64,000 nucleotides of DNA from Bacteroidales bacterium. Its GTDB lineage: Bacteria > Bacteroidota > Bacteroidia > Bacteroidales > M50B96. Below, piece after piece: positions 21,976 through 60,916 of this stretch. The stretch spans positions 1 through 64,000 of the forward strand of contig JAIOYV010000018.1 in assembly GCA_021740905.1 (NCBI GenBank), written 5' to 3'. The position numbers and the translations under genes are program-made. The notes under the pieces were generated by a model. It made no database searches, was not told the DNA's origin, and worked only from the letters and a program-made list of their open reading frames with translations. The first letter of the stretch is position 1. Each line of letters opens with the position of its first letter.

Positions 21976-21988
21976 TGGGAAGAAAAGC

Positions 21989-38994: not shown

Positions 38995-39007
38995 AATTTA
39001 TTCAGCC

Positions 39008-42000
39008 ATGAAGAAGAATTTTATTTGCTGCGTACTGACTTTGGCAGCCTTATGTTTCCTTAGTCTAAACCCTGTCCTTTCCCAGTCAACCAAACAAACG
39101 CAAAATAGCGTTTTGAGCACAGCTCAAAACCTTTTGCAAGAGTATAATTATACACCACCTACTCAGGGCATGTTAGGTACCGCTACCCAAACCCCGGAAG
39201 AAAGCTGGGAAGAATATTATTCCCAATTGAATTCTACGAAGTCGACAACAACCACTTATCCCATGACAGTGAAGGTAATGCCTACCTATTATGTGTGGCC
39301 AAACCAGTCGTTTATTCTTTGGGGAAATGTAAAGTGGGACGGAGGTTTTTCCGGATCAGGAACCTACTATTGGGATTTTGGTGATGGGACACAATCTACC
39401 CCAGCTACCATATCCAATGTCAAATACATGAGTGCTTCCCATAGCTATGCAAATTATGCAACTTATACAGCCACACTTCATGTAACCGACAATCAGGGCT
39501 TGACCGAGAGCCAGAGTGTCAGTATTCGTGTGGTTTTGAACGAGAGGGAGACTCGCAGAAAGAGAGCCATAGAGGATGGTCTGCGCTATCTTTACTTACA
39601 ACAATATGCCGATGGGCATTGGTACGGAAATTACAGTTATGCCCCTGCCCCGGAAGTGGCAGCTACCGGCCTGGCTTTGTTATCCTTCGAAGAAAATGGA
39701 CATCAGCCCTGGAATTCGCCCGACCACGACATTTACAAAGAAGTGGTCCAGAAAGGATTTCAATATTTGTGGGGCGAAATAGAAAGAAATACCATTTCGA
39801 ACCAGACTTACGGAAACCCTGATGGGGACGGCAATGGCTATGGTTACCATTTTTCCGGTTCACGGTCTTCGTATGCAGACCCAACCGCATTAGCCGCTAT
39901 AGTCACATCCAATTCACCTAACCAGGTGATTACAAACGGCCCTTCGTGGGTGCAAGGGCAAACCTATCTTCAGGTAGTCCAAAACCTGGTCGATGAAATA
40001 GCCTGGAGCCAGTCGGAAACAGGAAATGGACGGGGTGGCTGGCGTTACGATATTACCGGCGCAAACGCTGGCGATGCTGATATGTCAACTACGCAATGGC
40101 CGGTTTTAGGTTTGCTTTTTGCAGAATCCTGGGGCATTACAGCACCATCCTTTGTTCGAAATGAGCTGGCGAATTTTAGTTCTTATGCCCAAAATGCTGA
40201 TGGGCATTATGGATATACGGGACCTGGTGATGGTTTCTATATGTCACGCCAGGGATCGGGTGCAATTTGTCTGTATTATAGAGGATTAGGCCCGGGAAAT
40301 TCACAATACGACAATATGATTAATTATTATATAAATCACTACACAGTCGACGATGGCTATTCAGGAAAGTATGGTTTGTATGCCCTCTACAAGGGGCTTT
40401 GGTTCTATGGCCTGTTGAATCAAAACATTGGCTCCCACACCTGGTGGAACGATTATGTCGATTTGTTAACTTCCACACAGGGTACATCAGGCGACTGGCC
40501 CGGTTCGTGGGGGAGCAATGCACTGAATACCGGTTTCAGTATCCTTGTGCTCACGCCAAAAATAATTGTCCCCAACGACATTTTAAATGTGGATATCACG
40601 GTCATCAATAAAGATAAATTTCCAAAGATTGCTGTAACAGCTGATATAACATCGTATGGTTTACCGCTACCAAGCCTCACAGCACAGTCGTTCACTCTTA
40701 CTGAAAACGGAAATCTTCAATCTGTACATGTGGAATATGTAGACAATCAATATATATTGAGTTATACCACCGACGAACCAAACTTATTTGTAGGAAACCG
40801 GAATGTTTTTGTAGAAGTCACAACAGAATTGTATGATGAGGTGCAGCAACAAAATGTTACGGTTTCCAACTATGGGACATCATTTTATGTACTTTCCACA
40901 CCCCCTGTAATCAACCGGACAGCTGCCACCATTGCCTTGAGTAATCAGATCAATGCCCCAGGTGTTGATTTTATAATTGAAGCTTACATTGAAGATTATT
41001 ACGAACCTTACCTCCAATCGGCATCTATATTTTATCGCCCCTCGAATTCTGGGACAGGTTTTGTTGAAGTTCCTATGTATCAGCAAAGCGGATCTTTGTG
41101 GCGCGGATATATTCCGGGAAATGCATCCCAAACTCCAGGGATCGATTATTATATATCGGCTACCGATGGATCAAACACGAGTTATAAGCCTACTTCAAGT
41201 GCTGATGTTTTTCCGTACCAAATCCCGGTAGAGAATCTCCTTCCTGTAATTACACACACCCCTGTATTGTTTGGGGTTCAGGGCTTGGATGTTTCAATCA
41301 CCGCTACTGCAACCGATAATACGACGAATTTAACTGCGGTGAATCTGCATTATCGTGGTATGGGTCAACAGTATTGGGAATTTACCACAATGAGCCTTGT
41401 ATCGGGAAGCACCTACCAGGGAACAATCCCGGGGGCGTACTTTCTTATCGAGGGTTGCGAATATTATATTTCGGCCACCGATAACTTTAACCTTATTGGA
41501 TATTCTGGGTTTATTGACTGTCCATTTCAGATTGTCCCGAATAATTTAGGAAACTTGAAAGGCACAATCACAAATGCACAAACCGGTACACCCATACCAA
41601 ATGTTACAGTATCCCTGCAAACCGGTGGAACATTGGTTCAAACGGTTACTTCGGGCGAAGATGGCAGTTATACTTTCTATGGTGTACAGCCTGGTACTTA
41701 TACAGCGAAAGCACAAAAGCTTGGTTATATAACTTCCACAAGTGGCAATTTAGCAGTTGCTTCCTCGCAGGAAACAACTTATAATTTTGCCCTCAACCTT
41801 AACAATACAGTAGATGTTGCTTTAGCGAATATTGCAAAAACCACTACACTCGATCCGCTTGATCCATTGTTGTTGAATATTAACCTTATCAATTTGGGTG
41901 CACAGGATGCTCAAAATGTAAAAGTAGCAGTCTATTCCGAAGATATTACACTAGCTCATCCACCAATGGTTCAATTAGGTACAATAATTATTCCTTCACT

Positions 42001-45000
42001 GGAGGCATTGCAATCACATACTGCCCAATCGAGCTGGTTGCCGGCCTCAGATTATGTTAGGATTACAGCAGAAATCGATCCTGATGATATATACTCGGAA
42101 TTGGATGAATTGAACAACATAAAATCGGTTGAATTTGCTTTCACACCACCCACTATTACAGATGTTGTAGCTTTAATCGATGAAAACCCATCACCTTCTA
42201 TTATCGGGAAGTTCATGTCGGGTATCGAAAACAATATGAATACGTTTACCGCTACAGTTACCGACCCCGAAGGTATTGCCACAATCAAGAAAGTAATATT
42301 TCAATTTGGCAACACGATAACCCTTGAAGATACTGACGGTAGCGATGGTTGGTCGGTTGAAGTGGACATGGGGATATTCCCATCAAACGACATACAACTT
42401 AAAGTTTTGGCCTACGACATAACAAACCTCGCATCTGCAAAAATGATAAAAACCATCGATATGTACGCACCGCCTCCGTGGCTATCAAAATTCCAGCAAA
42501 CTGGCCCCTATTACTTCGAGGACGGCATGTTCAAAAACACCCTCAAGCTGAAAAACCTGCAAACAGGAAATAGCGATATGTTCAACTTTAGCCATACACT
42601 TTACCAGGGTATGAAGCTTATAGGATCGTTGCAAAACGAATTTGATGGAGGTATTGAAGTGGAAGTTGGTTTTCCGGTTGACGATTCGCATGCTCCTTAT
42701 ATGAAAGGTGGGTTTAAACTTGCCCAGGAAGTCCTTGGCCGCGAAGTAGGTTCAGCCGATGCCGACATCACCTTTGTCCTGGCTTCTGATTACACACTTC
42801 AAAATATTTCGTATACCTTTAGCGAGGATGTAATATTGTTCAGAGACCAGTACACCAGTTATGTAGAGACCGGAATACCTGGATTGCAAGTTATCTTGGG
42901 AATTGGTTTCGAGATTTTTGCAGGACTAACTTTCGAGGCATCGAGTGCAACAAATTTAACAAATTACACTGTAACCTTTAGTCCTTACATAGGAGGCGCA
43001 ATACACGGAACTGTAGGCCTGCAGATTCTATATGGACTTGCCAGGGGAGAAGCAACAGTTTCCCCAACGCTTCAAATAAACTTCGATTTGGTGTATAATT
43101 CCAACAATGGATTTGGAAGCGATCTCAATGGCGAATTCGAAGTGAGATATAATCTTATGATTAGCTTTTTCTGGGGTTTGTGGAAGGACGATATAATTTC
43201 AGGTACATGGGGCCCGTGGAGTTTAGGCAATAATAAGATGAATGTTGTAATGGTTTTGGATACCACACTGGCTATACCGCAGGTACTTCCCTATCCCCAG
43301 GTCCGTACCGATTCGTATGGTAATCTGGCAGTTATCTGGGTAACCGACAAGGATACGCTAAAATCCGAGATTGATCCTGAACTGGCTTTTAGTTATAAGA
43401 CTGTAACTGGGAACTGGTCTACACCAGTAGACATAGAATCGAACGATTATTTCGAATCCTGTCCCGACATTTCATTTATGCACAACGACAGTGTGGTGGC
43501 TGTTTGGGTAAGGAATAGCATTTCAAAAACCCAGGCAACGGGGATGTCAAACATTACCATGTACGACATCCTGAATGCCCAGGATATATATTATGCCATT
43601 TACGATACGGTAAACGGCTGGGGCACATCGGCTCCTGTGATTTCCGATGCTGCCGGTTCCTATTATTCCGACGGGGTTCCTTCTGTCGATTTCAACAGTG
43701 CTTCACAAGGGTTGGTTTTGTGGACACGTTCGTCGAACAATACAAATCCCTTCCAGGCTGGGGCAATGGATATTTACTATTCCGTCTGGAGTGGTTCTTC
43801 CTGGTCGACACCGGCTATATTGGTGAACAATGCCAACAGTAACTTTGAGCCTATTGTCCGTTTCAACCATGCCGGGACATCGGCTTTGGCAGTTTGGAAA
43901 ACTGATGTGGATGGCTTACCACAAACTCCCACTGACAATGAATTGGCTTATAGCATGTGGAACGGCACAAGCTGGTCGGCTGCACAAAGCTTTACCAGCA
44001 ATGCTTTGAACGAATATGACCCGGTGATTGCTGCTCTGTCAAATGGCGATTTTGTTTGCTCATGGATAGAAGAAGAGATGGATAACACCAGTCAGCACCG
44101 ACAATGCAGGGTAATGGCCAATCTTTATTCAGCAATGGGCAGCCAATGGGGAACACCAGAATTGGTGTATACTGATTCGTTCACCCTCGAAAAACCCGTA
44201 TTAAATATAGATACCCGAAACATTGCAGGGTTGCTTTGGAAAGGCACAAATGGGACACAGACCGATTTGTTCTTCTCGGCAAAAGATTATGCGAATGGCT
44301 CACTTTGGACAACTCCCGGGATAATGACGGATGATGCAGTATCCGATTGGATGAGCACGGCTACCATCGATGCCTTCAATAATATGCACTATATCGATTT
44401 TAAATTTGATCTGGATGAAAATGGAAGTCAAACAGTTGCCGGGCCGAATATTATGAACCTGATGTCGGCAAGTAACAATAACCCGGTCACCGGCACGCTC
44501 GATACCGGCTTAACTTACCTGACATACATGCTTAATCCTGATTTGGAGATTACTGATGAAGATATTTACCTGATGCCTGTTACCTCAATTGAAGAAGGCG
44601 ACTCGCTGCAACTGGTTGTAAATTACCACAACATCAGTGCAGTTCCTATCAATGGATTCACCGTTGATTTATACCAGAATGGCGCACTGGTTTTAAGTTT
44701 GACAGACTCGTTGCTGGGGACTACCTCCGATTCATTGGTCTGGGATTTTATTGTCAGTGCTGGGCTTCATCATTTTGAGGTCTTTCTCGACTCGGCCAAT
44801 GTTGTGGCTGAAGTGGATGATACCAACAATGATGCTGCCTTTACTCTACTTGTAGCTTCCGATTTAATGGCGGAGAATCTAAATACAAGCAATCCAACAC
44901 CAGTTCAGGGCGAAGTAATTCAACTATCTGCCAACATCAGAAACCTTCAGGGAGCCGATGCCAATAACATTATTGCCCGTTTCTTTGATGGGTCAACTCA

Positions 45001-48000
45001 AATAGGATCTGATATTGTAATTGATTCCCTGTTGATTGGCGATACCGTATCGATCTCGGCTAATTACACAGTTGCAGCCGGATTGCGCGATCTATCGGCA
45101 GTAGTCAATCCCGATTCACTCATTACCGAAGTCAGCCTGGAAAATAATGCGGCAAATCTACAACTCGATGTGCGGCCAGACCTCGCGGTTTATCAATCGG
45201 ATATTAGTTTCAACGATGTGGACAGTTTCGTGATAACCACTTTCACGGTTTACAATATTGGTGGGAGCTATGCAGCAAATGTCCCGGTTCAGCTCTGGAA
45301 CGGCGACCCGATTGCCCCCACCAGTTTAATGATCACCCAATTGATGGTGGACACCATTTTTGAACAAGACAATGCTGTGCTCACCTATAATTGGATGGCT
45401 CCTTTTGGAATGACCGAATTGTTTGTGGTGGTCGATCCGGCCAATACAATAGAAGAAAAGAGCTGGCAAAACAACCAGTTCTCCATTCAGTATGTGCGTG
45501 TTGAAAAGCCTGATCTGAGCATCAGTCAGATTCAGCTCAACCCTGCTGAAGTTCAGCAATATCATCCCCTCGAAATGGCCGTCAGTGTATCCAACACAGG
45601 AAATGCCAATGCCGTTTCAGTACAAGTCCGTTGCTATGATGGTAACCCCTTGCTGACCGGTGTGGAAATTGCCAATTCATCAATTGCTTATATTAACGGA
45701 GGATCATCGGTAACTAAAACCCTAAGTTGGGATGTGGATGATGCAACGCTCGGATTGCATGATATTTATGTATATGTCGATCCGAACGATATTATCATTG
45801 AGTTGGATGAAACCAATAACCTCTCGAACTCTCCAATAACAGTTGTTGCAGACACCACATCACCAGTCTTAGCAAGCGTTCCGGTGGATTATTATGTTTC
45901 GGTCGAAAGTGGCTCAACCTTGAACCAGTCGCTCACATTGTACAACAATGGGAATTCAACCCTGAATTATTCCATTGCAACCGAGCTGTTGCCCGACAGT
46001 ATCCTAACCATGAACAACCCGGGCAATGGAGCCGGAAAATCGGCCTGGTTCGATGGCAGTGGCGATTATGTGACCACTGCCGATATCGATTTGGCCAAAT
46101 TCACCCTTGAGGCTTGGATTTATCTTACACCCGGATTCGCGACCACCGAAAATTGCATCCTCTCGAAATGGTATTATTACAACGACAACGTAAGGGAATT
46201 CCTGTTCGCTTTGCGAAGTGGCAACTACATGCGACTGAATTATTCAAGTACGGGCGGAAATGAGTTTTATCTTGATTCGCCAACCGGTTTATTTGAAGAA
46301 TATCAGTGGTATCATGTGGCAGCCACAATCGATAGTCAAATGGTACGGTTGTATGTAAATGATCAGATCGTTGCAGAAACAGTGTGGGAGAATGTGATCA
46401 CTTCCAACGGGACAGGCAATGTAGTGATTGGCCGGTACAACACAAGTTGGGATTTCCATGGGCAAATTGATGAAGTCAGGATTTGGGATTATGCCCGAAA
46501 CCAGGCTGAAATTGCCTCGACCATGAATTCTGAATTGAGCGGCAACGAACCCGGACTGGTTGCCTACTGGACTATGGATAATCATTTTCTTGATTTGACC
46601 GGCAATGGGGCTAATGGCACCCCTTACGGCAATGTCTATTTCAAAGAGTCGGAAGCCCCCATTGGCTCGGCCAACTATGAGTATACTGCCTCCGGCCTGC
46701 CCAAAACAATTGGCCCCAACGCCAATGCTGTCACAGAATCTTCTATCTTGGTAAGCGATAATTATCCTGTTGGCGACCTTAACCTGATGCTGGATATTAC
46801 CCATGGTTCTTTGCTCGATATGAGCATTGAATTAATTTCACCGACTGGAACTGTCCTTTCTTTGATTTCGACCGGAAGCATTAGCGGAACAGAATTAGAC
46901 AGCACAATCTTAAATGATGAAGCGCTGAATTATATTTCCACTGGTTCTTCTCCTTTTGCTTCTACTTATAAATTGAACAGCAACCTCTTAAGTATATTTG
47001 ATAACGAACCGGTTGAAGGTACCTGGACACTCCGTATTACCGACCATATAAACGGAGACGGTGGTTCGCTCAACTTCTGGAAGATGATGATCCGGAAAGC
47101 CGGGCCTGCCTGGTTGCAGGTTTCTCCATTGGAAGGAAGCATTGCTGCCGGGGCTAATGAAGTCCTGAATGTCGATTTCATTTCAGGGAATTTGACCCCC
47201 GGTGAGTATTTCGCCAATATTATGGTAAACAGCAACGACCCGGTTACACCAGAATACATCATTCCTACAAGCACAACAATTTCCGGAAATCCTGAGCTGA
47301 TGTTGGCTATGGATACCCTCGATTTCGATACGGCCTTTGTTGGTTTCAGCAATACCATCAGCCTCGGCATAGCCAATGTAGGAAACGGACTGGCCAATAT
47401 CACCAATGTGCAATTTGCAACCTTGAATTTCTCTGCAAATCCCACTTCATTCAACATCCCGGTAGGCGAAACCTATTATCTCGATGTGCTCTTCCATCCC
47501 GATGGAACCGGTTTCGATGAAGATGTAATGACTATTGTAAGCAATGACCAGCCACGTACAGCCGTAGTTCAGGGAATTGGTTTACAGCCACCGGCAATGA
47601 CTGTGGCACCGATGGCATACAGCGATTCGCTTTCGACTGGCGAGACTTCAACACACAACATGCTGATCAGTAATTCCGGTGAATATCGGTTGGATTACCA
47701 TACCCAAGCCCGGGTAGTTGCTAATTCCAGTTACAATCATATCATATATGTGGCCAACCGCAACAGCAACTCAGTTTCAGCTATCGATGTACTGGCCGAT
47801 AGTATTATCGGTACGATCACTGTACCTTATGCCCCGGTCCGGTTGACCTTGAATCCCGATGCTTCCATCCTGTGGATGAGCTATGATAATTCTGCTGTCG
47901 TCAGCTTTATTCAGGTTTCCGAATTTTACAATCCATTGGCTGCCGTTCAGGATATTGGTGTTGCAGGAACACAAACTTCCGGGGTGGCTATCTCCATCAA

Positions 48001-51000: not shown

Positions 51001-54000
51001 CTACCGGGGTGGAGCGGCTGTGCCAAGAGGGTTTGGTGTTGCGTACCAGGGTGAATCAATATTAGGTCAAGGAACAAATACTTCGGGTGCCAATTTAAGT
51101 GGAGGCGGCCCAGGATCTCCCGGATATGGTGGTGGCTATGGAATTTCCGGTGAAGGAAGTAGTGGCGGAGTCTGCTATGGAACAAATACACTTGAAAGAC
51201 TCTATCTTGGTTCAGGTGGAGGTTCTGGTAATGCCGGCACCAATGACAATTGTGGTTCCGGTGGCGGTTTCGGCGGAGATGGCGGTGGAATTCTGGTCGT
51301 CAAAGCTGCAAATGTTGTTGTTGATGGTATTATTACTGCCTCTGGCGGCGATGGCACAAATCCGCCATACACATCCTGCACCTGCGACGATGATAATGGC
51401 GGAGGTGGCGGCGGAAGCGGTGGCAGCCTCATGTTGTCTGCCAATTCTCTTGTTAACAATAATCTGGTTCGTTTTAGTGGTGGAATTGGCAAAGAGGCAT
51501 ATTCCGAAAATGGGGCTTATGGATGTGGATACCAGGGTACTAAATACGATGGTGGGTTAGGCCGTGCTGTGATTTGTTCACCAGTATATTACAATAATGG
51601 AACAGTAGATTCAACAGCTCTTGAAGGTATCCTGGCCTCACAACTGCCTTATTTTATCAACTTTAGTCCTGCACAGGCAACTGTTCCTCTGGGTAGCAGC
51701 CAGCTTGTAGATGTAACCATCGATGCTTCATATCTTGATGCCGGCTTATACAATTCGGATATTGAGATCATGAGCAACGACATTATAAACCCAATTTACA
51801 CTATTCCCCTTTCTCTATTGGTAGATAGTGCAATAGCTCTTGTAGTTGACCCGAGCCTGAACTTTGACGATACGTATGTTGGATCGACAAGCTCACTGCC
51901 GTTCATCCTGAAAAACACAGGAACAGATACACTGGAAATCACTGATATCAATAGTTCTGAGGTAGCGATTTTCCAGGTAAGCGACACCGCTCTTGTAATT
52001 CCGCAAAACGGGGAAGATACCGTTTGGGTAACCTTTAGTCCCGATACGGTTCTGTTCTATACTGAAACCATGAGTATACTGTCGAATGATCCCACTGATC
52101 CGCAAAAGGATGTAATGTTGACAGGACAGGGGATTACCGATCCGGATATATATTATTCGTATATGTCAAGTGGTAGTTTTACAAAACCACAGAATGATTC
52201 GGCAACTTTCCAGTTAATTGTGAAGAATACCGGTGGTAGCGATATGACTTACTCATTAAGCAGTGTGGATAAGTTGAGCAGCAAACCCGGGATGGCCGCT
52301 AAGTTTGATGGAAACGGGGATTACGTTGAAATCCTGGATAATCCAAGTCTCGATTTAGAAGGAAATAGTATGTCGGTGGAAGCCTGGGTAAATGTTTACT
52401 CCTTAACTTCGACATCGCAGTGTGTGATTGGTAAAATTGATTGGTCCACAACTACCGATTGGAGTTATAACATGCATATTACCAGTACAGGAGCTTTGCA
52501 TTTTAATGTGGCGAATACCAATAATGAGACCTTCCCAACATATAGTGGGGATATCATTCAGCCTAACACCTGGTACCATGTAGTTGGTACTTACGATGGT
52601 GCTTTTGTAAGGCTTTATGTGGATGGAGTGGAAGTTGGTGTTCGTTATGCTTACGGAAATATAAGACAAAATTCCTATCCTCTCCATATTGGTGCCTGGC
52701 ATTCCGGAGGTCCAAATTATTTCAAGGGCGAAATTGATGAGCTCCGAATTTGGGACTATGCTTTAACATCTGAAGAAATCCAGACCAGGGCGAATACATC
52801 CCTGGGAGGAATTGATCCGGGATTGGCCGCTTACTGGAATTTTAACTACGATGCTTGGGAAGATTTAACCGGAAACAGTTTAGTCGGAACTCCAAATGGA
52901 AATGCGCAGGTCATTGCATCCAATGCCCCATTATCAATCTTCGATGTTGTAAGCTTTAGCAGCAATGGTGGTATATTAGCCCCAAATCAGCAGGATAATT
53001 TACAGGTCACATTCAGGACAGGAAACCTTGCATTTGGCAATTACCCGGCAGATTTTATAATTGAAAGCAATGATCCGGTTGACAGTGTGGTAACATTTAC
53101 CAATAACTTCACAGTGACACCTTCCGACATTTATCTTGCCCAAACATCAGTCAATGTTGATGTGGCATTAGCCGATTCCATTTCACAAACATTCAATATT
53201 GCCAACACCGGTTTAAGTCCTTTGACTGGTCATATATATTTGAATATCGCTGATTCCCTGGCGAATATCATCAATAAAGATTTCGACAACGGTGTATGGA
53301 ACGATTTATTTACGGATGGAGGTACGGGTGGAACAATTGGTACTTCTACCTCTTATTATCATTCATCACTACGCAGTATGAGGATTTATGCCGCTGATGC
53401 TGACAGGTATATTACCACAAGCAATTTGATTGTACATGACAGGTTGATTTTAGATTCCTGGTATCGTATTATTACTTCTGAAGGTGGTTGTGACTATCGG
53501 ATTTACTGGCAAGTGAACGGGGGTGGTTTTAATTTACTGTTTGATACGCCGGATAACACCACAATGGGTTGGACGAATTACTACATCGATCTTAGCAGCT
53601 ATGTTTCAGAAGGCGATGTGGTTCAGTTCAGGTTTTTTTCAAATATATATAGCACTTCGACTTCCAACGACCAGTTTGATGTGTATATCGATGATATTAA
53701 AATAGAACTATCGTCGGTTGACGAGTGTTTTGCTATCAATCAATCTACCTTCACGATTCCGCCTTTATCGAACCAGGATTTTACCCTGTCGTTCAACAGT
53801 CTCGATCTTCCGGTGAATACCTATAGTTTGGGAATGACCATTATTTCCAACGATCCTGATGAGGACACTTTGCTTGTACCTGTTTCCATGTTTGTGCCTT
53901 CACCCGAGATTTATGTAAATCCAGACGAATTCTACATTACCATGTACAGTGGCGATACCACCAGTCGTGGTTTCAATCTGGGGAATACCGGCTATTTAAG

Positions 54001-57000
54001 TGAATTGCATGGAGAAATAGTTCCCGTAATACCGGCTGATATAAGTGGCATTATTGATAATTTTGACGATGGTGTCTGGAATGATTTCTGGACAGCAAGC
54101 GGTTCGGGTGGTTCGGTAGGAACAACTACAAGCCAGTACCATTCATCACCCAGAAGTTTACGAATTTATGCCGCCGATAACGATAAATATGTTACATCCG
54201 ACCCGATAACCATTTCGCACCGTTTGAAGATTTCCTTCTGGTATAGGATTACCACATCGGAAGGTGGTTGCGATTTCAAGTTGTACTGGCAGAAAAATGG
54301 TGGCGGTTACGTCGAATTGTTCAATACTGCCGATAATACAACGTATGGCTGGACCTATTATGAAAATGATCTATCAAGCGAGGTAGCTGAGGATGATGTG
54401 GTTGAGTTTAGGATGTTTTCAAATATCTACTCAACCGGATCGAGTAACGATCAGCAGGATACATACATCGATGATGTGCGGATTGCATTGGGGAATGTAT
54501 TGGTATTGGATGAAAGGTACTTCCATATACCGGCAGGAGTAACCGATACAAATACGGTGTTTGTCAACGCCAAAGACTTTGCTCCCGGAGCCTATACCTT
54601 CAACATACACTTCAACTCGAACGATGTGGTCACTCCCGATTTCATTATGCCTATCTATCTCACCATTAATGATGCGGCAGCTATTTGGGTTTCGGATGAT
54701 ACCTTATGGTTTGGGCAGCAATTTGTGGGTGGACAAGTTCCACTTACCCTTACTGTTTATAATAATGGTTCTGATACTTTGGAGATAAATAATGTCCAGA
54801 TAAATGGTACGTTCAGTTATACCGGGACTTATTCCGGTGTTGTATTGCCCGGCAACAGTCTCGAATATCAGGTACTTTTCGAACCTAATGCCATCCAGGC
54901 AGAGCAGGGTGTGATTTCATTTACCTCGAACGACCCCACGAATTATGTAAAGTATGTAGTCCTTATAGGTGAAGGTATTTCTGCGCCGGATATTATTGTT
55001 AGCCCTGATCCGCTTGAGTTTTCAGCCCAAACACAGGACAATATCATCCAATCTGTGACAGTGAGCAATTTAGGTGGAAATAATCTGGAGTACGAATTTT
55101 ATTCCCGAATGAAAACCGATTCGGCAATGTGGCATTATGCTTATTTGGTGAACCATATTGCCGGAACAATGTCGATTGTTGATCTGAACGCCATGTCGTC
55201 ATCTACTTTAACAGGATATAATACAAATCCTTATGTAATTGATATGACCCGGGATGGAAAATATTGCTGGATAACAAACACCGCTCACAGTAAAATCAGT
55301 ATTTATAATCTTGAAACTGGCATCTTGAAAACCATTACTGGTGTCGGAACCGACAGACGCGGGGTAGCTTTCTCGCCCAACGATTCCATTGCTTATGTAG
55401 CCGACATGGCCAACAACCGCATTGAGGTGTACAATACCAATTCGCTGGCATTGATTGCCACTTTCTCGACCAATATTGCCGATCCACAGTGGGTAGATAT
55501 CACACCAGACGGACACTTCCTCTATATTTCAGATACAGGAACCGACAAGGTAATTGTGATGAACACCGAGGATTACACCGAATATGCTACCATAAGTGGC
55601 CTTGTTGATCCCTGGGGTATTGAACTTAGCCCCGATGGAAATTGGTTTGCCGTGCGCGATGGCGATTATGTCCAGGTAGGATCGACTGCAACCAACAGCT
55701 TTGTCGGTTCGTTCTTTGTCGATAATCCACGCACACCAAAATGGTCGCCAAATAGTAGACTGATTTATGTAGGAAGCAATGATGATTATAAAGTCCATAT
55801 TTTTGAGACTGATTCATTTACCATGGTCAAAGAATTTGATTTGGCATATAAGCCCTGGTCAGTTGAAATTACCGAAGATGAGAAGTATCTGGTGGCAACT
55901 TGCTATGATAACGACCGCCTGGCTGTGATCAATCTTGAAACGGATGCAATTAATTATCTGGTGGTTGGCGATGGTCCTACTACAGTCACCACGTTCCGCA
56001 CCAAGCAGCCCATTTGGATTGAGGATATTTCTCTCATGCAGGATACCCTCATACCACTTGCAACCGACAATGTGGATATTACTTTCAATACGACTGAAAT
56101 TTCAGGAGGCGATTATTATGCTGAACTGGTTTTCGAAACAAACGATCCAGCCAGCGCTAAGTTCAACCACGATATCATAATGCACCACAATTCGGGAGTT
56201 CCTTTCCTGTATGCTGAAAATACCATTGATTTTGAAGAAGTCTATATTGGCTATCCTGAAACTTATCAGTTGGTAATTAAGAATACCGGAACCCTGAATT
56301 TAAGCATTACCTCGGCAGTTGCATCTCCATTGGAATTCACAACACCGGCATTGAACCTTGTGCTTGAGCCTGATTCCTCGGCTATCGTTCCCGTGATCTG
56401 CAATCCGGGACTTGTCGGGGCTTTAAATGGCACCTTGACTTTCACAACAAATGCCGGAAATACAGGGATCACTTTATTAGCCGATGCAATGGATGCACCG
56501 GAGGTTTCGCTTAATCCAACATCAGTTTTGAAGAACATGGTTTCCGATGAAACTTCTTCCAGTACGGTGGTATTTGAAAATTCGGGTGGCAGCAACCTGG
56601 AATACTCTACCAGGGCTGGAATGCACCGGGATAAATACGTAATCGGGAACGATGCTAAAGACAAGATACTGATCTGGAATTCCGCTACAAATACCCTTGA
56701 TTCTGTCAGTTTGCCTTATTCAGGGCCATGGAGAATGAAGTACTCTCCCGATGGAAACCAACTTTGGATTACCTTCGAAGATGCTGGACGAGTAATTGTC
56801 CTTGATGCATATTCATACTCCCAGTTGGCAAATATTTATGTTCAAGGTACACGGACATCTGGTGTGGCCTTTAATCCTGCAGGCAGTATTGCTTATGTGG
56901 GTAACTGGTCGCAAAGCCGGATCGAAATTATTGATGCCCACAGTTTTGTCTGGGATGGAAGCATTACGGGTTCAGTGTCTTATCCAAAAGAATTGGTTAG

Positions 57001-60000
57001 TAATCCCGATGGTTCAAAACTCTTTGTGAGCAATCAAAACAACGATGACCTTGTGGTGATCGACTTGATGACAAACACGGTCCTCTCTGCGATTGATGGT
57101 TATAGCACCGGTTACGATCTTGCAATATCCCCCGATGGGAATTATGTGTATTGGGTCGATTTGTATTATGTGAATAAGTTCGATGTCGATTCAAACGCCA
57201 TTGTTCAAACCAGTGCCAATTTGGGTGAATTGCGTGGCATAACCATTTCAGAAGATGGAGCAACCGTCTATGTATGTGCCTACACAAACGATAAAGTTGT
57301 GGGTCTCGAAACTACAGGATTGACTCAGGTTTCGCAATACACAGGAATCCTGAATCCCTGGGATGTGGCTTTATCCTTCGATGAATCACAATTGCTGGTT
57401 ACTGCGTCGAGCCTGAACAGGGTAGCTGTTTTTGATGTAGCTACGGCAGCAAGGCAATATTGCGACCTGGGCGCAAGCGATTTCGATTTCAGGGATATCG
57501 TTGTTCCTGAACGGATTTCATGGCTCGATTACAGTTTGTTTGATGCGACACTGGCTGCCGGTGGAGTAAATAATCTGCAATTTGATTTCAACACCCTTGA
57601 TATGCCCGTGGGTGTCTATTTTGCCGAATATGGAATTTACTCCAACGATCCGGTCAACCCTGAAGTGTACCTGCCAATTACCTTGAACGTAACTGGTCTT
57701 GCATCTCCTTATATTTCAGTTTCACCAGGAAGTCTGACTATTCCATACTTTGGCGATACCATTGAATTTGTGGTTTCCAATTCAGGAACCGGGATCCTTA
57801 ACTGGGCAGCTTCTGTCAATAGTCAGTGGATGCAAATCCTGGGTGATCATACCGGAGGAGAAGGGGATACTCTAACCCTTGCTTGTGCCTTGAACCCCGG
57901 CATCAACCGGTCAGGCTTGCTAGTATTTACCTCTGCCGATGCGGGCAATAGTCCGCAGATTATTACCATAAATCAGGAGGCTTATCTCGAACCGATCTTT
58001 ACTGCCGGTTCAACCGAAATCTGTTTCGATGGACAGGTTGTATTTAGCGAGGCATCAACGGGGATAATTTCCGGGTACTTGTGGAATTTTGGAACCGATG
58101 CTGTTCCTGCCACAGCTACTACAGCCGGGCCTCATACGGTAGGATATACTTCCACCGGTTTCAAAACAATCAGCCTAACTGTTTTCCACGCAACGGGGGC
58201 CAGCGAAATTCTAACCATGACCGATTATGTGGAAGTGAACCCCTTGCCGGTTATGACCCTGGGTAACGATCTGGAAATTTGTGACGATGAAACCACAACT
58301 CTCTATCCGGGTTATTACTATCAATATTTGTGGTCGGATAACTCGGCCAACCAGAGCCTGGTGGTTTCGGAAACGGGAACCTACTCTCTTACTGTTACTG
58401 AAATGAATGGCTGTTCCAGCACGGATGATGTGTATGTGCTGGTTCACAATTTACCCATGCCTAATCTGGGAAGTGATATCGAAATCTGCGATGGTCAAAC
58501 AAGCCTTTTATTTGCCGGTTTATTCGATAGCTATATATGGTCGAACGGGAGTACAAACCAGACAATTTTAGCCGGTGTTCAGGATACCTATTCGGTTACC
58601 GTAACGGATCAAAATGGATGTGATAACAACGACGATGTATTCGTGACAGTTCACACTTTGCCGATTGCGAATACCGGTGCAGATCAGACTATTTGCGAAG
58701 GGACTTGTGCAACGTTGACAGGAACAGGTGGGATCAACTATTCCTGGAGCAATGGCGGCACGGGTCAGACCAATGTGGTTTGTCCGGTTGTAAGTACACA
58801 ATATACCCTTACAGTGGAAGATGGTAACTCCTGCACCAATACAGATCAGGTGATGATTTCCGTTAATCCAATGCCTTATGTCTATTTGGGTCCTGACACA
58901 ATGATAAATCCCGGTGCATCCTTGTTATTGAATGCAGGTGCCGGATACATGCTGTATTTGTGGAATACCGGCGCAACAACTCAAACCATCATGGCCAGCA
59001 CTTCGGGTACTTACCTCGTGAATGTGCTTGATACAAATTCGTGTAACAATAGTGATGATATCAACATTATTGTCAGCAACGATACTACTTTGCCCATTCT
59101 TTCGGTTAGTCCGCTTATGGCAAATATTTCAGCCGCCGGTGGTTATTTTAATTTCAATATTGCCAATACCGGCTCCGGGCAACTTAATTGGCAGGCAATT
59201 GCTGCTGAACCCTGGATTCATATTAATAATCCGTCAGGTACCGGCTATAGCTACTTAATAGCAACAATTGACCAGAACCTGGGAGTTGCCAGAGTTGGAA
59301 CCATAACAATATACGCACCGCTGGCATTCAATTCACCACAAACTATCGTGATTACTCAAATAGCGGGTAATTATCCACCCTGGACAGTTGTGAACACAGG
59401 CATTAATCACAGCCTATTTATTCCTTCGTCTGTGGTTCCACAAATTAACAATAGCCCTGTTGCTATCGGCGATTTCGTTGGGATATTTTTTACCGATTCA
59501 CTTGGAGGGATTCATTGTGGTGGCTATGAAGCGTACACCGGTCAAAATATTCTTGTGACTGCCTGGTGCGATGATGATCAAACTTCCATTAAAGATGGAT
59601 TCTCCACAGGAGAAGCATTTTCCTGGAAAATCTGGCATGCTTCAAATGGACAGGAATACAATGCAGTGGCAACCTATATGGCTCCGCCGTTGATGCCAAA
59701 TGAAGGCTATTTTTATCCAAACGGAATGAGCGGTTTGCTTTCACTGGAATCCGTCAACGAGCAATTCCAGGTAATAAACCTTCCTGAGGGTTGGTCCTTC
59801 TTCTCAACCTACATTGATATGTTCGAGCCAAACATCGATAGCATGATGCAACCCATTGTTCAGGAAGTATTAATAGCAAAAGACGGGAATGGCATGGTTT
59901 ACTGGCCACTGTTTAGTTTGAATATGTTAGGAGATATAGATATTGGGGAGGGGTACCAGATTAAGATGAACTCAACACAAACCGTCACCGCTGTGGGGAT

Positions 60001-60916
60001 GATCGTTGTTCCCGAAATTACCGGGATAATTGTTCCTGCAGGTTGGAGCATGATAGGCTATCTGCGTACAACACCCGGTCCATTAGAAAGCATGCTAAGT
60101 TCGATCCAGTCCAATATTATCATCATGAAGGACGAAAATGGCTTGGTTTATTGGCCGATATGGGGCCTGAATTTAATTGGTACCATGCAACCTGGCGAAG
60201 GCTATCAAATAAAACTTGATGCCCAGTCTACCCTTTTATATCCGCCAAATACTATCCCTGTTTCTAAGATTGAGGTTCAACATGAGCTTCCGGTCTATTA
60301 CAACCAAACCTGCAATACCGGTAATAATATGACCCTCGGGATTCCTTTATTCGTATGGGCAAACCCACCTATTTATGGCGATGAAGTGGCTGTTTTTACT
60401 CATTCGGGATTGATGGTTGGTTCTGCCAAATTCAGGGGAGGCCACCTGGCCATTCCAATTTGGGGCGATGATGAACTCACTGCAACAATCGATGGAATAA
60501 GCGAAGGAGCTGATTTTACATTGCGGCACTGGAGTAATTTGTCGGGACAAGAATCGCAGATAGTTGTGGAATCCTGGATTGAAGGAGGTAATTCGTATGA
60601 ACGGAATAAAATATCAGTAGTAGGAAAACTGCAAATTCAGGAAGACCCAAATACGTATGCCTTATTTCAAAACATACCTAATCCTTTTAAAGAGGAAACC
60701 GAATTTGGGTTTTATCTACCTGTCGAAACAGAGGTGGAGCTTGCCATTTACAATTTGTTGGGCAAAAAGGTTGAGGTGGTTTTCACTGGAAATCTAAACA
60801 AGGGGAATCATAGAATTCTGTATAAACCTGATTTATTACGATCAGGTACATATTATTATTCATTGCAAACCTGTGAGTTCTTCGATACTAAGAAGATGGT
60901 GATTATTAGGAAGTAG
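39008..60916 (+). CDS. Giant (7302-residue) T9SS-secreted multidomain surface protein
   Basis: One open frame of 21.9 kb. Signal peptide 1-26, PKD domain about 83-178, toroid repeat domain about 182-518, carboxypeptidase-regulatory-like domain about 850-918, CARDB domain about 935-1048, an unidentified beta-rich part about 1155-1411, a propeller-like part about 1412-1830, and four more CARDB domains about 1841-2281. Next are three LamG-like domains (about 2343-2545, 3425-3631 and 4425-4638), a proprotein convertase P-like domain (about 2561-2698), a Gly-rich region (about 3958-4184), two copies of a 147-residue module (4754-4901, 5015-5161) and three YncE-like propellers (2908-3211, 5374-5661, 5876-6161). 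ASH-like (choice-of-anchor) spacers lie between. BACON (6232-6328, 6695-6788), PKD and four SprB-like repeats (about 6415-6695) follow, and the type A T9SS signal covers 7212-7302. No enzyme motif was recognised. An adhesin or surface scaffold is likely. Confidence 0.9.
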   Translation: MKKNFICCVLTLAALCFLSLNPVLSQSTKQTQNSVLSTAQNLLQEYNYTPPTQGMLGTATQTPEESWEEYYSQLNSTKSTTTTYPMTVKVMPTYYVWPNQSFILWGNVKWDGGFSGSGTYYWDFGDGTQSTPATISNVKYMSASHSYANYATYTATLHVTDNQGLTESQSVSIRVVLNERETRRKRAIEDGLRYLYLQQYADGHWYGNYSYAPAPEVAATGLALLSFEENGHQPWNSPDHDIYKEVVQKGFQYLWGEIERNTISNQTYGNPDGDGNGYGYHFSGSRSSYADPTALAAIVTSNSPNQVITNGPSWVQGQTYLQVVQNLVDEIAWSQSETGNGRGGWRYDITGANAGDADMSTTQWPVLGLLFAESWGITAPSFVRNELANFSSYAQNADGHYGYTGPGDGFYMSRQGSGAICLYYRGLGPGNSQYDNMINYYINHYTVDDGYSGKYGLYALYKGLWFYGLLNQNIGSHTWWNDYVDLLTSTQGTSGDWPGSWGSNALNTGFSILVLTPKIIVPNDILNVDITVINKDKFPKIAVTADITSYGLPLPSLTAQSFTLTENGNLQSVHVEYVDNQYILSYTTDEPNLFVGNRNVFVEVTTELYDEVQQQNVTVSNYGTSFYVLSTPPVINRTAATIALSNQINAPGVDFIIEAYIEDYYEPYLQSASIFYRPSNSGTGFVEVPMYQQSGSLWRGYIPGNASQTPGIDYYISATDGSNTSYKPTSSADVFPYQIPVENLLPVITHTPVLFGVQGLDVSITATATDNTTNLTAVNLHYRGMGQQYWEFTTMSLVSGSTYQGTIPGAYFLIEGCEYYISATDNFNLIGYSGFIDCPFQIVPNNLGNLKGTITNAQTGTPIPNVTVSLQTGGTLVQTVTSGEDGSYTFYGVQPGTYTAKAQKLGYITSTSGNLAVASSQETTYNFALNLNNTVDVALANIAKTTTLDPLDPLLLNINLINLGAQDAQNVKVAVYSEDITLAHPPMVQLGTIIIPSLEALQSHTAQSSWLPASDYVRITAEIDPDDIYSELDELNNIKSVEFAFTPPTITDVVALIDENPSPSIIGKFMSGIENNMNTFTATVTDPEGIATIKKVIFQFGNTITLEDTDGSDGWSVEVDMGIFPSNDIQLKVLAYDITNLASAKMIKTIDMYAPPPWLSKFQQTGPYYFEDGMFKNTLKLKNLQTGNSDMFNFSHTLYQGMKLIGSLQNEFDGGIEVEVGFPVDDSHAPYMKGGFKLAQEVLGREVGSADADITFVLASDYTLQNISYTFSEDVILFRDQYTSYVETGIPGLQVILGIGFEIFAGLTFEASSATNLTNYTVTFSPYIGGAIHGTVGLQILYGLARGEATVSPTLQINFDLVYNSNNGFGSDLNGEFEVRYNLMISFFWGLWKDDIISGTWGPWSLGNNKMNVVMVLDTTLAIPQVLPYPQVRTDSYGNLAVIWVTDKDTLKSEIDPELAFSYKTVTGNWSTPVDIESNDYFESCPDISFMHNDSVVAVWVRNSISKTQATGMSNITMYDILNAQDIYYAIYDTVNGWGTSAPVISDAAGSYYSDGVPSVDFNSASQGLVLWTRSSNNTNPFQAGAMDIYYSVWSGSSWSTPAILVNNANSNFEPIVRFNHAGTSALAVWKTDVDGLPQTPTDNELAYSMWNGTSWSAAQSFTSNALNEYDPVIAALSNGDFVCSWIEEEMDNTSQHRQCRVMANLYSAMGSQWGTPELVYTDSFTLEKPVLNIDTRNIAGLLWKGTNGTQTDLFFSAKDYANGSLWTTPGIMTDDAVSDWMSTATIDAFNNMHYIDFKFDLDENGSQTVAGPNIMNLMSASNNNPVTGTLDTGLTYLTYMLNPDLEITDEDIYLMPVTSIEEGDSLQLVVNYHNISAVPINGFTVDLYQNGALVLSLTDSLLGTTSDSLVWDFIVSAGLHHFEVFLDSANVVAEVDDTNNDAAFTLLVASDLMAENLNTSNPTPVQGEVIQLSANIRNLQGADANNIIARFFDGSTQIGSDIVIDSLLIGDTVSISANYTVAAGLRDLSAVVNPDSLITEVSLENNAANLQLDVRPDLAVYQSDISFNDVDSFVITTFTVYNIGGSYAANVPVQLWNGDPIAPTSLMITQLMVDTIFEQDNAVLTYNWMAPFGMTELFVVVDPANTIEEKSWQNNQFSIQYVRVEKPDLSISQIQLNPAEVQQYHPLEMAVSVSNTGNANAVSVQVRCYDGNPLLTGVEIANSSIAYINGGSSVTKTLSWDVDDATLGLHDIYVYVDPNDIIIELDETNNLSNSPITVVADTTSPVLASVPVDYYVSVESGSTLNQSLTLYNNGNSTLNYSIATELLPDSILTMNNPGNGAGKSAWFDGSGDYVTTADIDLAKFTLEAWIYLTPGFATTENCILSKWYYYNDNVREFLFALRSGNYMRLNYSSTGGNEFYLDSPTGLFEEYQWYHVAATIDSQMVRLYVNDQIVAETVWENVITSNGTGNVVIGRYNTSWDFHGQIDEVRIWDYARNQAEIASTMNSELSGNEPGLVAYWTMDNHFLDLTGNGANGTPYGNVYFKESEAPIGSANYEYTASGLPKTIGPNANAVTESSILVSDNYPVGDLNLMLDITHGSLLDMSIELISPTGTVLSLISTGSISGTELDSTILNDEALNYISTGSSPFASTYKLNSNLLSIFDNEPVEGTWTLRITDHINGDGGSLNFWKMMIRKAGPAWLQVSPLEGSIAAGANEVLNVDFISGNLTPGEYFANIMVNSNDPVTPEYIIPTSTTISGNPELMLAMDTLDFDTAFVGFSNTISLGIANVGNGLANITNVQFATLNFSANPTSFNIPVGETYYLDVLFHPDGTGFDEDVMTIVSNDQPRTAVVQGIGLQPPAMTVAPMAYSDSLSTGETSTHNMLISNSGEYRLDYHTQARVVANSSYNHIIYVANRNSNSVSAIDVLADSIIGTITVPYAPVRLTLNPDASILWMSYDNSAVVSFIQVSEFYNPLAAVQDIGVAGTQTSGVAISINNDGISHGYAYVGNPAMNTLDRINLTNAQVETFSATNVDPVDVLMAPNGIDLFVLSSSYLHVFNTYTEEFTQIATGYNTGYGLAISPDGKWLYTTDRYYVRRYNAETYQYINNINLLNYGREISLSPDGELLAVADLNNSYVRFLDNELNLLATVTNINHPTGLEISEDNMYCYVSERDDDEVNRILLNTFEIDTTWNIPVGDYPLGVALPRSIVAPWAYAEPDTNSVDSLQSFNGDMIFDASGLRNGNYEAELWISSNDPYQPKIIADLNLEVTEAPYIHVDPEALIFPDTILTGLTDTLTFMVYNEGYDTLIVTDIQNTNSVFSLDMSAFTLAPTDSHKVTVVFTPDTTAFEQDVITILNNDDTRQIPVEAHGLLAPILTLSATTIDQTLQVGGSATQTFNISNMGYSNLEFAVQMTDYSNNPNKSALFDGSGDYITIPDNDSLDVVGHEITVEAWVKCTSFSGDLRCVLGKIDWSVTTNWSYNMHITDVGALHFNFANTSGTQFPQYSTQHLSTNTWYHVAATYDGSFIRLYIDGTEVLSSAASGDFRQNTYPVRIGSWYTSDPNYFNGRIDEVRIWHTVRSQAEIQGTAQTRLIGNEPGLVGYWNFDGTNPWTDGAGFAANGTTSGNATTTLVDLELLPTWLAWSGKDAAGLLPGEMDTIIFDFNANNLIGGVYPANMRINSNDPQNQMVDVPITLTVHGQAIVSLSTDSLNFGTVYVGKSSVLEFDITNTGDDTLHVYNILGLPVYTMTPSNFYVLVGQTQTVSVQFTPQAAMNYNTVLSIVSDDPNAPSVNVFADGLMPPIIAVAPTTLSDTLSMGDQGNHTLLISNTGGSDLNFSFNSNQFGTGVDGPLTVGTGQTYYTDNVKSKVAWNNPSGQNTIWVSNVSGFGAGDEVLIITMQDNDTNLTQNLAGQFETRFVDAIDGNLLILDNDLQNTYNQSDTVKHQIIKIPQFTDVTVDGTMTCADWNGQTGGVLFFRANGTLTVNASGAISVVAKGYRGGAAVPRGFGVAYQGESILGQGTNTSGANLSGGGPGSPGYGGGYGISGEGSSGGVCYGTNTLERLYLGSGGGSGNAGTNDNCGSGGGFGGDGGGILVVKAANVVVDGIITASGGDGTNPPYTSCTCDDDNGGGGGGSGGSLMLSANSLVNNNLVRFSGGIGKEAYSENGAYGCGYQGTKYDGGLGRAVICSPVYYNNGTVDSTALEGILASQLPYFINFSPAQATVPLGSSQLVDVTIDASYLDAGLYNSDIEIMSNDIINPIYTIPLSLLVDSAIALVVDPSLNFDDTYVGSTSSLPFILKNTGTDTLEITDINSSEVAIFQVSDTALVIPQNGEDTVWVTFSPDTVLFYTETMSILSNDPTDPQKDVMLTGQGITDPDIYYSYMSSGSFTKPQNDSATFQLIVKNTGGSDMTYSLSSVDKLSSKPGMAAKFDGNGDYVEILDNPSLDLEGNSMSVEAWVNVYSLTSTSQCVIGKIDWSTTTDWSYNMHITSTGALHFNVANTNNETFPTYSGDIIQPNTWYHVVGTYDGAFVRLYVDGVEVGVRYAYGNIRQNSYPLHIGAWHSGGPNYFKGEIDELRIWDYALTSEEIQTRANTSLGGIDPGLAAYWNFNYDAWEDLTGNSLVGTPNGNAQVIASNAPLSIFDVVSFSSNGGILAPNQQDNLQVTFRTGNLAFGNYPADFIIESNDPVDSVVTFTNNFTVTPSDIYLAQTSVNVDVALADSISQTFNIANTGLSPLTGHIYLNIADSLANIINKDFDNGVWNDLFTDGGTGGTIGTSTSYYHSSLRSMRIYAADADRYITTSNLIVHDRLILDSWYRIITSEGGCDYRIYWQVNGGGFNLLFDTPDNTTMGWTNYYIDLSSYVSEGDVVQFRFFSNIYSTSTSNDQFDVYIDDIKIELSSVDECFAINQSTFTIPPLSNQDFTLSFNSLDLPVNTYSLGMTIISNDPDEDTLLVPVSMFVPSPEIYVNPDEFYITMYSGDTTSRGFNLGNTGYLSELHGEIVPVIPADISGIIDNFDDGVWNDFWTASGSGGSVGTTTSQYHSSPRSLRIYAADNDKYVTSDPITISHRLKISFWYRITTSEGGCDFKLYWQKNGGGYVELFNTADNTTYGWTYYENDLSSEVAEDDVVEFRMFSNIYSTGSSNDQQDTYIDDVRIALGNVLVLDERYFHIPAGVTDTNTVFVNAKDFAPGAYTFNIHFNSNDVVTPDFIMPIYLTINDAAAIWVSDDTLWFGQQFVGGQVPLTLTVYNNGSDTLEINNVQINGTFSYTGTYSGVVLPGNSLEYQVLFEPNAIQAEQGVISFTSNDPTNYVKYVVLIGEGISAPDIIVSPDPLEFSAQTQDNIIQSVTVSNLGGNNLEYEFYSRMKTDSAMWHYAYLVNHIAGTMSIVDLNAMSSSTLTGYNTNPYVIDMTRDGKYCWITNTAHSKISIYNLETGILKTITGVGTDRRGVAFSPNDSIAYVADMANNRIEVYNTNSLALIATFSTNIADPQWVDITPDGHFLYISDTGTDKVIVMNTEDYTEYATISGLVDPWGIELSPDGNWFAVRDGDYVQVGSTATNSFVGSFFVDNPRTPKWSPNSRLIYVGSNDDYKVHIFETDSFTMVKEFDLAYKPWSVEITEDEKYLVATCYDNDRLAVINLETDAINYLVVGDGPTTVTTFRTKQPIWIEDISLMQDTLIPLATDNVDITFNTTEISGGDYYAELVFETNDPASAKFNHDIIMHHNSGVPFLYAENTIDFEEVYIGYPETYQLVIKNTGTLNLSITSAVASPLEFTTPALNLVLEPDSSAIVPVICNPGLVGALNGTLTFTTNAGNTGITLLADAMDAPEVSLNPTSVLKNMVSDETSSSTVVFENSGGSNLEYSTRAGMHRDKYVIGNDAKDKILIWNSATNTLDSVSLPYSGPWRMKYSPDGNQLWITFEDAGRVIVLDAYSYSQLANIYVQGTRTSGVAFNPAGSIAYVGNWSQSRIEIIDAHSFVWDGSITGSVSYPKELVSNPDGSKLFVSNQNNDDLVVIDLMTNTVLSAIDGYSTGYDLAISPDGNYVYWVDLYYVNKFDVDSNAIVQTSANLGELRGITISEDGATVYVCAYTNDKVVGLETTGLTQVSQYTGILNPWDVALSFDESQLLVTASSLNRVAVFDVATAARQYCDLGASDFDFRDIVVPERISWLDYSLFDATLAAGGVNNLQFDFNTLDMPVGVYFAEYGIYSNDPVNPEVYLPITLNVTGLASPYISVSPGSLTIPYFGDTIEFVVSNSGTGILNWAASVNSQWMQILGDHTGGEGDTLTLACALNPGINRSGLLVFTSADAGNSPQIITINQEAYLEPIFTAGSTEICFDGQVVFSEASTGIISGYLWNFGTDAVPATATTAGPHTVGYTSTGFKTISLTVFHATGASEILTMTDYVEVNPLPVMTLGNDLEICDDETTTLYPGYYYQYLWSDNSANQSLVVSETGTYSLTVTEMNGCSSTDDVYVLVHNLPMPNLGSDIEICDGQTSLLFAGLFDSYIWSNGSTNQTILAGVQDTYSVTVTDQNGCDNNDDVFVTVHTLPIANTGADQTICEGTCATLTGTGGINYSWSNGGTGQTNVVCPVVSTQYTLTVEDGNSCTNTDQVMISVNPMPYVYLGPDTMINPGASLLLNAGAGYMLYLWNTGATTQTIMASTSGTYLVNVLDTNSCNNSDDINIIVSNDTTLPILSVSPLMANISAAGGYFNFNIANTGSGQLNWQAIAAEPWIHINNPSGTGYSYLIATIDQNLGVARVGTITIYAPLAFNSPQTIVITQIAGNYPPWTVVNTGINHSLFIPSSVVPQINNSPVAIGDFVGIFFTDSLGGIHCGGYEAYTGQNILVTAWCDDDQTSIKDGFSTGEAFSWKIWHASNGQEYNAVATYMAPPLMPNEGYFYPNGMSGLLSLESVNEQFQVINLPEGWSFFSTYIDMFEPNIDSMMQPIVQEVLIAKDGNGMVYWPLFSLNMLGDIDIGEGYQIKMNSTQTVTAVGMIVVPEITGIIVPAGWSMIGYLRTTPGPLESMLSSIQSNIIIMKDENGLVYWPIWGLNLIGTMQPGEGYQIKLDAQSTLLYPPNTIPVSKIEVQHELPVYYNQTCNTGNNMTLGIPLFVWANPPIYGDEVAVFTHSGLMVGSAKFRGGHLAIPIWGDDELTATIDGISEGADFTLRHWSNLSGQESQIVVESWIEGGNSYERNKISVVGKLQIQEDPNTYALFQNIPNPFKEETEFGFYLPVETEVELAIYNLLGKKVEVVFTGNLNKGNHRILYKPDLLRSGTYYYSLQTCEFFDTKKMVIIRK
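53267..54490 (+). repeat. Duplicated 147-residue module inside the giant gene
   Basis: Copies at about 53267-53710 and 54050-54490, offset 783 bp (261 residues). Both read FDxGVWNDxxT, RIYAADxD, SEGGCDxxxYWQ and FSNIYSTxxSNDQxDxYIDD. They resemble MAM/jelly-roll carbohydrate-binding modules. Each copy is followed by an ASH-like spacer. Confidence 0.8.

Follow-up and report, generated by a model that had tools for sequence, protein, structure and literature searches.

Genomic analysis of the window (the whole stretch of 64,000 nucleotides that was analysed) has revealed one ATG frame of 21.9 kb without internal stop, encoding a giant protein of 7,302 residues, as an earlier note on this DNA had described. 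Directly upstream of it lies a gene for a second, stand-alone toroid protein, preceded by a YdjY gene and, before that, by an Omp85-like barrel, while the frame of a TonB-dependent receptor begins 7 bases past the stop of the giant (read from a TTG, although the real start codon may lie further downstream). The positions of these genes and of the modules of the giant are given in Table 1. T9SS sorting domains number at least 150 in the source genome (6.54 Mb, 160 contigs; 150 of 572 candidates scored), and the host is therefore of Bacteroidota type, its T9SS secretome being very rich. One such domain (G000:C61:45968-46201) is located within a 6,119-aa open frame, so that this genome encodes at least one further giant surface protein.

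Table 1. Genes and protein modules of the locus (positions in the window; aa, residues of the giant)
Feature	Position	Strand	Evidence or remark
Omp85-family-like outer-membrane barrel, 374 aa	35525..36649	+	NF047779 E 6e-27, below its cut-off
YdjY-domain protein, 229 aa	36691..37380	+	NF040466 58.1 bits, cut-off 50
Stand-alone alpha/alpha toroid protein, 374 aa	37398..38522	+	PF13243 E 1.7e-7, PF09492 E 2.3e-5
Giant T9SS surface protein	39008..60916	+	7,302 aa, single frame
PKD domain (aa 118-174)	39359..39529	+	PF18911 E 6.8e-9
Predicted alpha/alpha toroid head (aa 171-521)	39518..40570	+	AF2 model and fold match to SHC 2sqc
D-x-S-x-x-Q-W motif of toroid (aa 358-364, DMSTTQW)	40079..40099	+	
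Carboxypeptidase-regulatory-like domain (aa 850-929)	41555..41794	+	PF13620 E 1.3e-16
CARDB 1 (aa 943-1040)	41834..42127	+	E 4.3e-9
Orphan beta-rich stretch (aa 1155-1411)	42470..43240	+	without family or credible relative
CARDB 2-5 (aa about 1820-2275)	44465..45832	+	four stretches within aa 1800-2310, E 1.2e-38
LamG 1	46052..46516	+	LamG_3 E 6.1e-26
Proprotein convertase P-domain (aa 2591-2693)	46778..47086	+	Pfam E 1.3e-10
ASH/HYDIN-type Ig domain	47291..47560	+	Pfam
Beta-propeller 1	47744..48424	+	Lactonase 31.3 bits
ASH/HYDIN-type Ig domain	48884..49105	+	Pfam
LamG 2	49292..49768	+	LamG_3 E 2.7e-31
ASH/HYDIN-type Ig domain	50114..50386	+	Pfam
ASH/HYDIN-type Ig domain	51854..52120	+	Pfam
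LamG 3	52307..52783	+	LamG_3 E 8.7e-34
ASH/HYDIN-type Ig domain	54689..54934	+	Pfam
Beta-propeller 2	55211..55747	+	Lactonase 47.2 bits
ASH-type Ig domain	56216..56458	+	Pfam
Beta-propeller 3	56657..57448	+	Lactonase 32 bits, YNCE 28.1 bits
BACON domain 1 (BACON_2)	57713..57979	+	E 1.3e-7
BACON-type domain 2 (BACON_2)	59123..59359	+	24.2 bits, just below cut-off 25
T9SS type A sorting domain	60677..60904	+	TIGR04183 25.2 bits, cut-off 23
TonB-dependent receptor, 810 aa	60924..63356	+	PF00593 E 7.9e-36, Plug 2.9e-21

The giant has been scanned with Pfam as overlapping pieces, at thresholds of E<=1 and E<=0.1 in two scans. Counting from the N-terminus, its modules follow the order: PKD, toroid, carboxypeptidase-regulatory domain, CARDB, an orphan beta-rich stretch and a propeller-like stretch; then four CARDB domains, LamG, P-domain and alternating ASH/HYDIN, propeller, LamG and glycine-rich segments; finally two BACON-type domains and the T9SS sorting domain. 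Most modules named in the earlier note have been recovered, including three lactonase/YNCE-type propellers, three LamG_3 domains, five CARDB spacers, at least seven HYDIN/ASH-type Ig stretches and the C-terminal sorting domain, the last one above the TIGR04183 cut-off but scoring 19.1 and 25.3 bits with Pfam PF18962, below its 27-bit cut-off. Both BACON domains were matched by BACON_2, although the second falls just short of the family threshold. The PKD, carboxypeptidase-regulatory and P-domains are additions to that list. The proposed SprB-like repeats, however, were not recovered, as no SprB family (PF13573) appeared in either Pfam scan of the giant, and a SprB homologue has been rejected on this ground.

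The N-terminus of the giant is hydrophobic and signal-peptide-like by eye; inspection by eye also points to a glycine-rich stretch (aa about 4000-4180) and a possible fourth propeller-like stretch (aa about 1430-1800) that matches no Pfam family. A weak MAM-like match (Pfam, E 0.0012) lies under the cut-off. No tandem repeats were found in the giant, a motif scan revealed no HExxH, RGD or thioester motif in it, and its self-BLAST, which returned the trivial self-match alone, was uninformative. An assembly artefact has been rejected, as the 21.9-kb frame is unbroken and relatives of the head show the same plan. The orphan beta-rich stretch, pointed out previously as the main unknown of the protein, is real: it has no Pfam family at E<=0.1, nothing credible in the PDB (best E 0.044) and no match beyond the source genome among 60 genomes. 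Among 395 phylum genomes, one marginal outside match (E 7e-4) falls in a permease-like ORF (product assigned by eye) and looks like a chance hit.

The most informative module of the giant, absent from the earlier note, is the toroid at residues 171-521, which is predicted to be an alpha/alpha toroid of the squalene-hopene cyclase (SHC)/prenyltransferase type, an enzyme fold. Its AlphaFold model, based on a 19-row alignment, consists of 12 helices (pLDDT 85.7, pTM 0.88). The predicted model matches the SHC fold in Foldseek (best E 2.9e-6) and aligns with SHC 2sqc (VIA-align) at Z 24.9 and 3.4 A, with 288 aligned residues at 17% identity. Pfam and PDB sequence searches with the embedded toroid were negative: Pfam gave nothing better than E 0.09 and no lyase or hydrolase match, a PDB search with the toroid alone gave nothing at E<=1, and one with a five-row profile nothing credible. 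Many polar and aromatic residues are invariant in the alignment of this family; a simple test for conservation concentrated at the N-termini of alternate helices, as expected for a lining of the cavity, was negative (2.74 vs 2.66 bits). Alignment A3 comprises the window and 18 of the 22 loci described below (L027, L030, L031 and L032 were excluded as partial or distant); the L014 row of alignment A2, a FapA protein, was removed for A4, and A5 was built without L007.

The stand-alone toroid passes the Pfam cut-offs of SQHop_cyclase_C and Pec_lyase, the latter at 24.3 bits, 2.3 bits above the cut-off of 22; no Pec_lyase match has been obtained for the embedded toroid. Its AF2 model (pLDDT 83.5) aligns with SHC 2sqc at Z 25.8 and 3.0 A over 279 residues, and its profile finds the same structure in a PDB search at E 5.7e-15. 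A signal peptide is recognizable by eye, and no T9SS sorting domain was found in this protein. The stand-alone and embedded toroid families are homologous (hhalign probability 99.1% over 297 columns) and have in common the motif D-x-S-x-x-(Q)W. At the DXDD site of class II terpene cyclases the embedded toroid reads D-A-D-M-S, with D-x-S invariant, and the PDLSN of the stand-alone protein aligns with PDVxDTA of SHC, Ser and Asn replacing the following Asp residues (the aligned SHC chain has C at one position of this site, presumably an engineered mutant). Both toroids carry D-x-S at the DXDD site, therefore the cyclase acid is absent. The earlier statement that the giant has no catalytic motif holds for the motifs scanned, but an enzyme fold is predicted in it nonetheless.

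Compared to SHC and other class II terpene cyclases (PF13243, PF00432), both window toroids are predicted to share the alpha/alpha toroid fold; they differ in a signal-peptide-like start, in D-x-S at the DXDD site and in having one toroid domain instead of two. The fold is also shared by pectate lyase family PL10 (PF09492), and the stand-alone toroid is nearer to SHC in both sequence and fold. Two functional candidates have been rejected: (i) an active terpene cyclase, DXDD not being retained in the toroids; (ii) a thioester (TED) trap of the complement/A2M type, as the C-G/A-E-Q motif occurs nowhere in the giant. SprB and others are giant T9SS surface adhesins, and the protein described here resembles them as a very large surface protein with a T9SS export signal. 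In contrast to SprB, it has no SprB family match, bears a toroid head, and is followed by a TonB-dependent receptor gene.

Outside the source genome, the embedded toroid was found among 296 phylum genomes in four copies, of about 40% identity, all in one genome (G314), and it is rare within the order (2 of 149 genomes, the source genome counted). A scan of GTDB representatives with the alignment of the G314 copies revealed 22 loci, whose record titles include Bacteroidetes, Ignavibacteriae, Zixibacteriota, Krumholzibacteriia, Verrucomicrobia and Planctomycetota. The five relatives analysed at full length (L013, L026, L012, L014 and L007) measure 1,033-2,173 aa. Each begins with a signal-peptide-like sequence and has a segment bearing two invariant prolines, PKD, the toroid, further PKD or Ig domains and CARDB; four of the five possess a T9SS-like tail, judged by eye. 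The N-terminal plan (proline-containing segment, PKD, toroid) and the two prolines are common to all seven surface proteins compared. In the giant the same head is retained and followed by several thousand additional residues, which consist of modules of lectin-like, propeller and Ig type; because its relatives share the head at so much smaller a size, it is most readily understood as an enlarged representative of a conserved family of toroid-bearing surface proteins.

A clear stand-alone toroid, defined as a match at E<=1e-80, has been identified in 14 genomes, of which 11 belong to the 17 that contain the 22 loci and three to the 296 phylum genomes (the source genome G000, G183 and G314). 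The stand-alone protein of the window is 45-51% identical to seven others. In 10 of the 14 genomes the next ORF (at least 200 aa, same strand) encodes a T9SS toroid surface protein, namely in the window, G314, L012, L013, L021, L023, L026, L027, L064 (G393) and L077 (G183), which span Bacteroidetes, Ignavibacteria and Krumholzibacteriia by record title; the tails of two of these ORFs fall outside the T9SS check (L021 runs off its locus, L027 is short at 469 aa). Directly downstream of the stand-alone gene, no surface toroid gene was found in G396, G405, G408 and G409. The two genes lie about 1-70 bp apart or overlap in nine of the ten adjacent cases, and 485 bp apart in the window. Since 11 of the 14 genomes had been picked for carrying the embedded toroid, only the adjacency and the stand-alone gene count as evidence in them, and the occurrence of the embedded toroid does not.

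The YdjY gene is present in all 14 genomes with a clear stand-alone toroid, compared to 7 of the 296 phylum genomes, and in ten of the 14 (G000, G183, G314, G393, G394, G395, G396, G398, G404 and G409) it precedes the stand-alone gene by up to about 5 kb on the same contig and strand. With the window excluded, 6 of 295 phylum genomes have YdjY, and both remaining ones with a stand-alone toroid belong to these six (hypergeometric 15/43365, about 3e-4, ignoring kinship). Between the window and G314, the YdjY proteins share 29% identity. We know of no function for this family (NF040466); a PDB search of the window protein gave nothing credible, and the term 'ydjy' is absent from the titles and abstracts of the literature searched. 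TonB-dependent receptors adjoin in seven of ten loci examined (the window, G314, L021, L023, L026, G183 and G393) and were not found directly beside the stand-alone gene in L012, L013 and L027; this count leaves out G396, G405, G408 and G409. Over nearly the entire protein, the window receptor shares 31% identity with the receptors of G314/L007 and L026, and its likeness to the divergently placed receptor of G393 lies mainly in the plug region.

The downstream surface proteins of G393 and G183 represent a second N-terminal subfamily with the toroid-like pattern GDMSxNQW (by eye); they are 39% identical over 678 columns and carry a T9SS sorting domain. In G393, the nearest relative, a surface toroid with 71% identity is encoded on a different contig from the stand-alone gene. 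The locus is not obligate, because three Zixibacteria (G400, G402, G403) have the surface toroid with neither YdjY nor a clear stand-alone toroid; G397 has YdjY without a stand-alone match. Directly upstream of the surface gene, no stand-alone gene was found in nine loci (L011, L014, L016, L018, L019, L022, L025, L028 and L032). This inspection of gene order leaves out L024, L029, L030 and L031, and L015, L017 and L020 have too little upstream sequence. Other genes at these loci include one for a 1,150-aa protein with ankyrin repeats, which lies upstream of the two toroid genes in an Ignavibacteriae MAG (L013, 3291-6743) and one for a further toroid-plus-CARDB T9SS protein in Krumholzibacteriia (L012, 644-4207). 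Giant T9SS mosaics and toroid folds are each already known; their combination and the recurring locus are not described in the titles and abstract openings searched.

The recurrence of this toroid locus may point to a system for capture or uptake that has not yet been described. As a tentative reading, which we consider quite possible, the locus would serve ligand capture at the surface and uptake, with the giant as a long fibre and the toroid as its binding head. The unit would comprise a YdjY-domain protein, one or two TonB-dependent receptors, the stand-alone toroid and the T9SS toroid surface protein. Exported by the T9SS, the giant would form a surface fibre with the squalene-cyclase-like toroid as its N-terminal functional head; this head, its cyclase acid lost, probably acts as a binding pocket. 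The surface toroid may capture a small ligand, probably hydrophobic or glycan-like, which the TonB-dependent receptor would import, and the stand-alone toroid, putatively periplasmic, would receive or process the same ligand. The LamG, propeller, CARDB and ASH modules, roughly 6,000 residues in all, would be an adhesive stalk that this lineage has added. In favour of the model are the predicted fold of both toroids and their homology, the recurring gene order with YdjY and TonB-dependent receptors, the kinship of the window receptor with two others of the locus, the identity among the stand-alone toroids and the shared N-terminal plan. Against it count the three Zixibacteria, the four genomes without a surface toroid gene next to the stand-alone one, the separate contigs in G393, the three loci without an adjoining receptor, the negative conservation test, the Rfam searches without a riboswitch and the way in which most of the 14 genomes were selected. 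A more elaborate form of the model, in which catalytically altered toroids derived from a cyclase would stand on both sides of the TonB receptor, the surface fibre fishing, the periplasmic one receiving and YdjY doing the handling, with a fishing line grown to 7,302 residues in this organism, is rather doubtful.

The earlier interpretation as an adhesive or scaffold fibre fits most of the protein. As a plain adhesin, the giant would stick cells to surfaces, glycans or other cells through LamG, propeller and P-domain modules on an Ig-type stalk, with the toroid as a further borrowed module and with gene neighbours that are incidental; adhesion or spacer modules indeed make up most of the 7,302 residues, and the source genome abounds in T9SS sorting domains and has other giants, such as the 6,119-aa frame. 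Nevertheless, this reading is incomplete because the toroid, with its predicted enzyme fold, spans several groups and its gene surroundings are conserved. What is conserved between the relatives, which at full length reach only 1,033-2,173 aa, is the toroid and not the stalk, and the arrangement with a second toroid gene is found again in several phylum-level groups; we regard a plain adhesin as not very likely. Alternatively, both toroids could have enzymatic activity, perhaps that of a polysaccharide lyase or hydrolase with this fold; the embedded one would process a glycan at the surface and the stand-alone one in the periplasm, feeding the TonB receptor. The Pec_lyase match of the stand-alone toroid, the pectate lyases found with its profile at E 0.11-0.13, the closeness of GH76 mannanases and cellobiose epimerases to the toroid models in fold (Z 18-23) and the many invariant polar and aromatic residues are consistent with it. 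However, SHC-type cyclases score best in both fold and sequence, and for the embedded toroid no sequence match to a lyase or hydrolase was obtained; we consider an enzymatic role unlikely.

It is also conceivable that the stand-alone toroid is a maturation factor or chaperone, binding the N-terminal segment or the toroid of the surface protein in the periplasm before export. The short or overlapping gene gaps and the two prolines invariant in the N-terminal segment of all seven surface proteins would agree with such a role, but surface toroids occur without a stand-alone partner in G400, G402 and G403, and the YdjY and TonB-dependent receptor genes would be left unexplained; we consider it improbable. 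For the preferred capture model, a precedent is provided by the BtuB/BtuG and SusC/SusD-type systems, in which, according to PMC10404256, a surface binder is encoded beside a TonB-dependent receptor. Compared to the systems as described there, the window locus likewise has a TonB-dependent receptor next to a surface protein, whereas the putative binder would be a T9SS-exported toroid and not a surface lipoprotein. Most giant T9SS surface proteins carry an annotation as adhesin with no known target. The conserved head of enzyme fold, together with its homologous stand-alone partner and a TonB receptor at the same locus, would give this class, usually left as 'hypothetical', a concrete, testable role in ligand capture and import, and the locus gives the YdjY domain a recurring genomic partner.

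Cobalamin binders of animals are also built on a toroid, and riboswitches were sought for this reason. No Rfam family reached the threshold in the window, L007, L077 and L064, six further toroid loci gave one tRNA and nothing else at threshold, and no cobalamin riboswitch appeared in the Rfam searches of the window and toroid loci. In the 485-base gap between the stand-alone gene and the giant (window 38523-39007), Rfam whalefall-1 scored E 0.038, below threshold, and a repeat finder reported nothing; searches for promoters, terminators and repeats upstream of the giant were without result. The gap contains a GC-rich block, partly palindromic by eye. Elsewhere in the window, (i) an EcoO109I-type restriction endonuclease (E 8.8e-95), a DNA methylase and a phage-type integrase lie in a row at 152-3072, possibly a mobile restriction-modification island at the edge of the window; (ii) a 781-aa multiheme cytochrome c-type protein is encoded at 5054-7399; and (iii) PrkA kinase, DUF444, SpoVR and a second PrkA-like gene form a cluster at 16704-25374, which is a known gene order.
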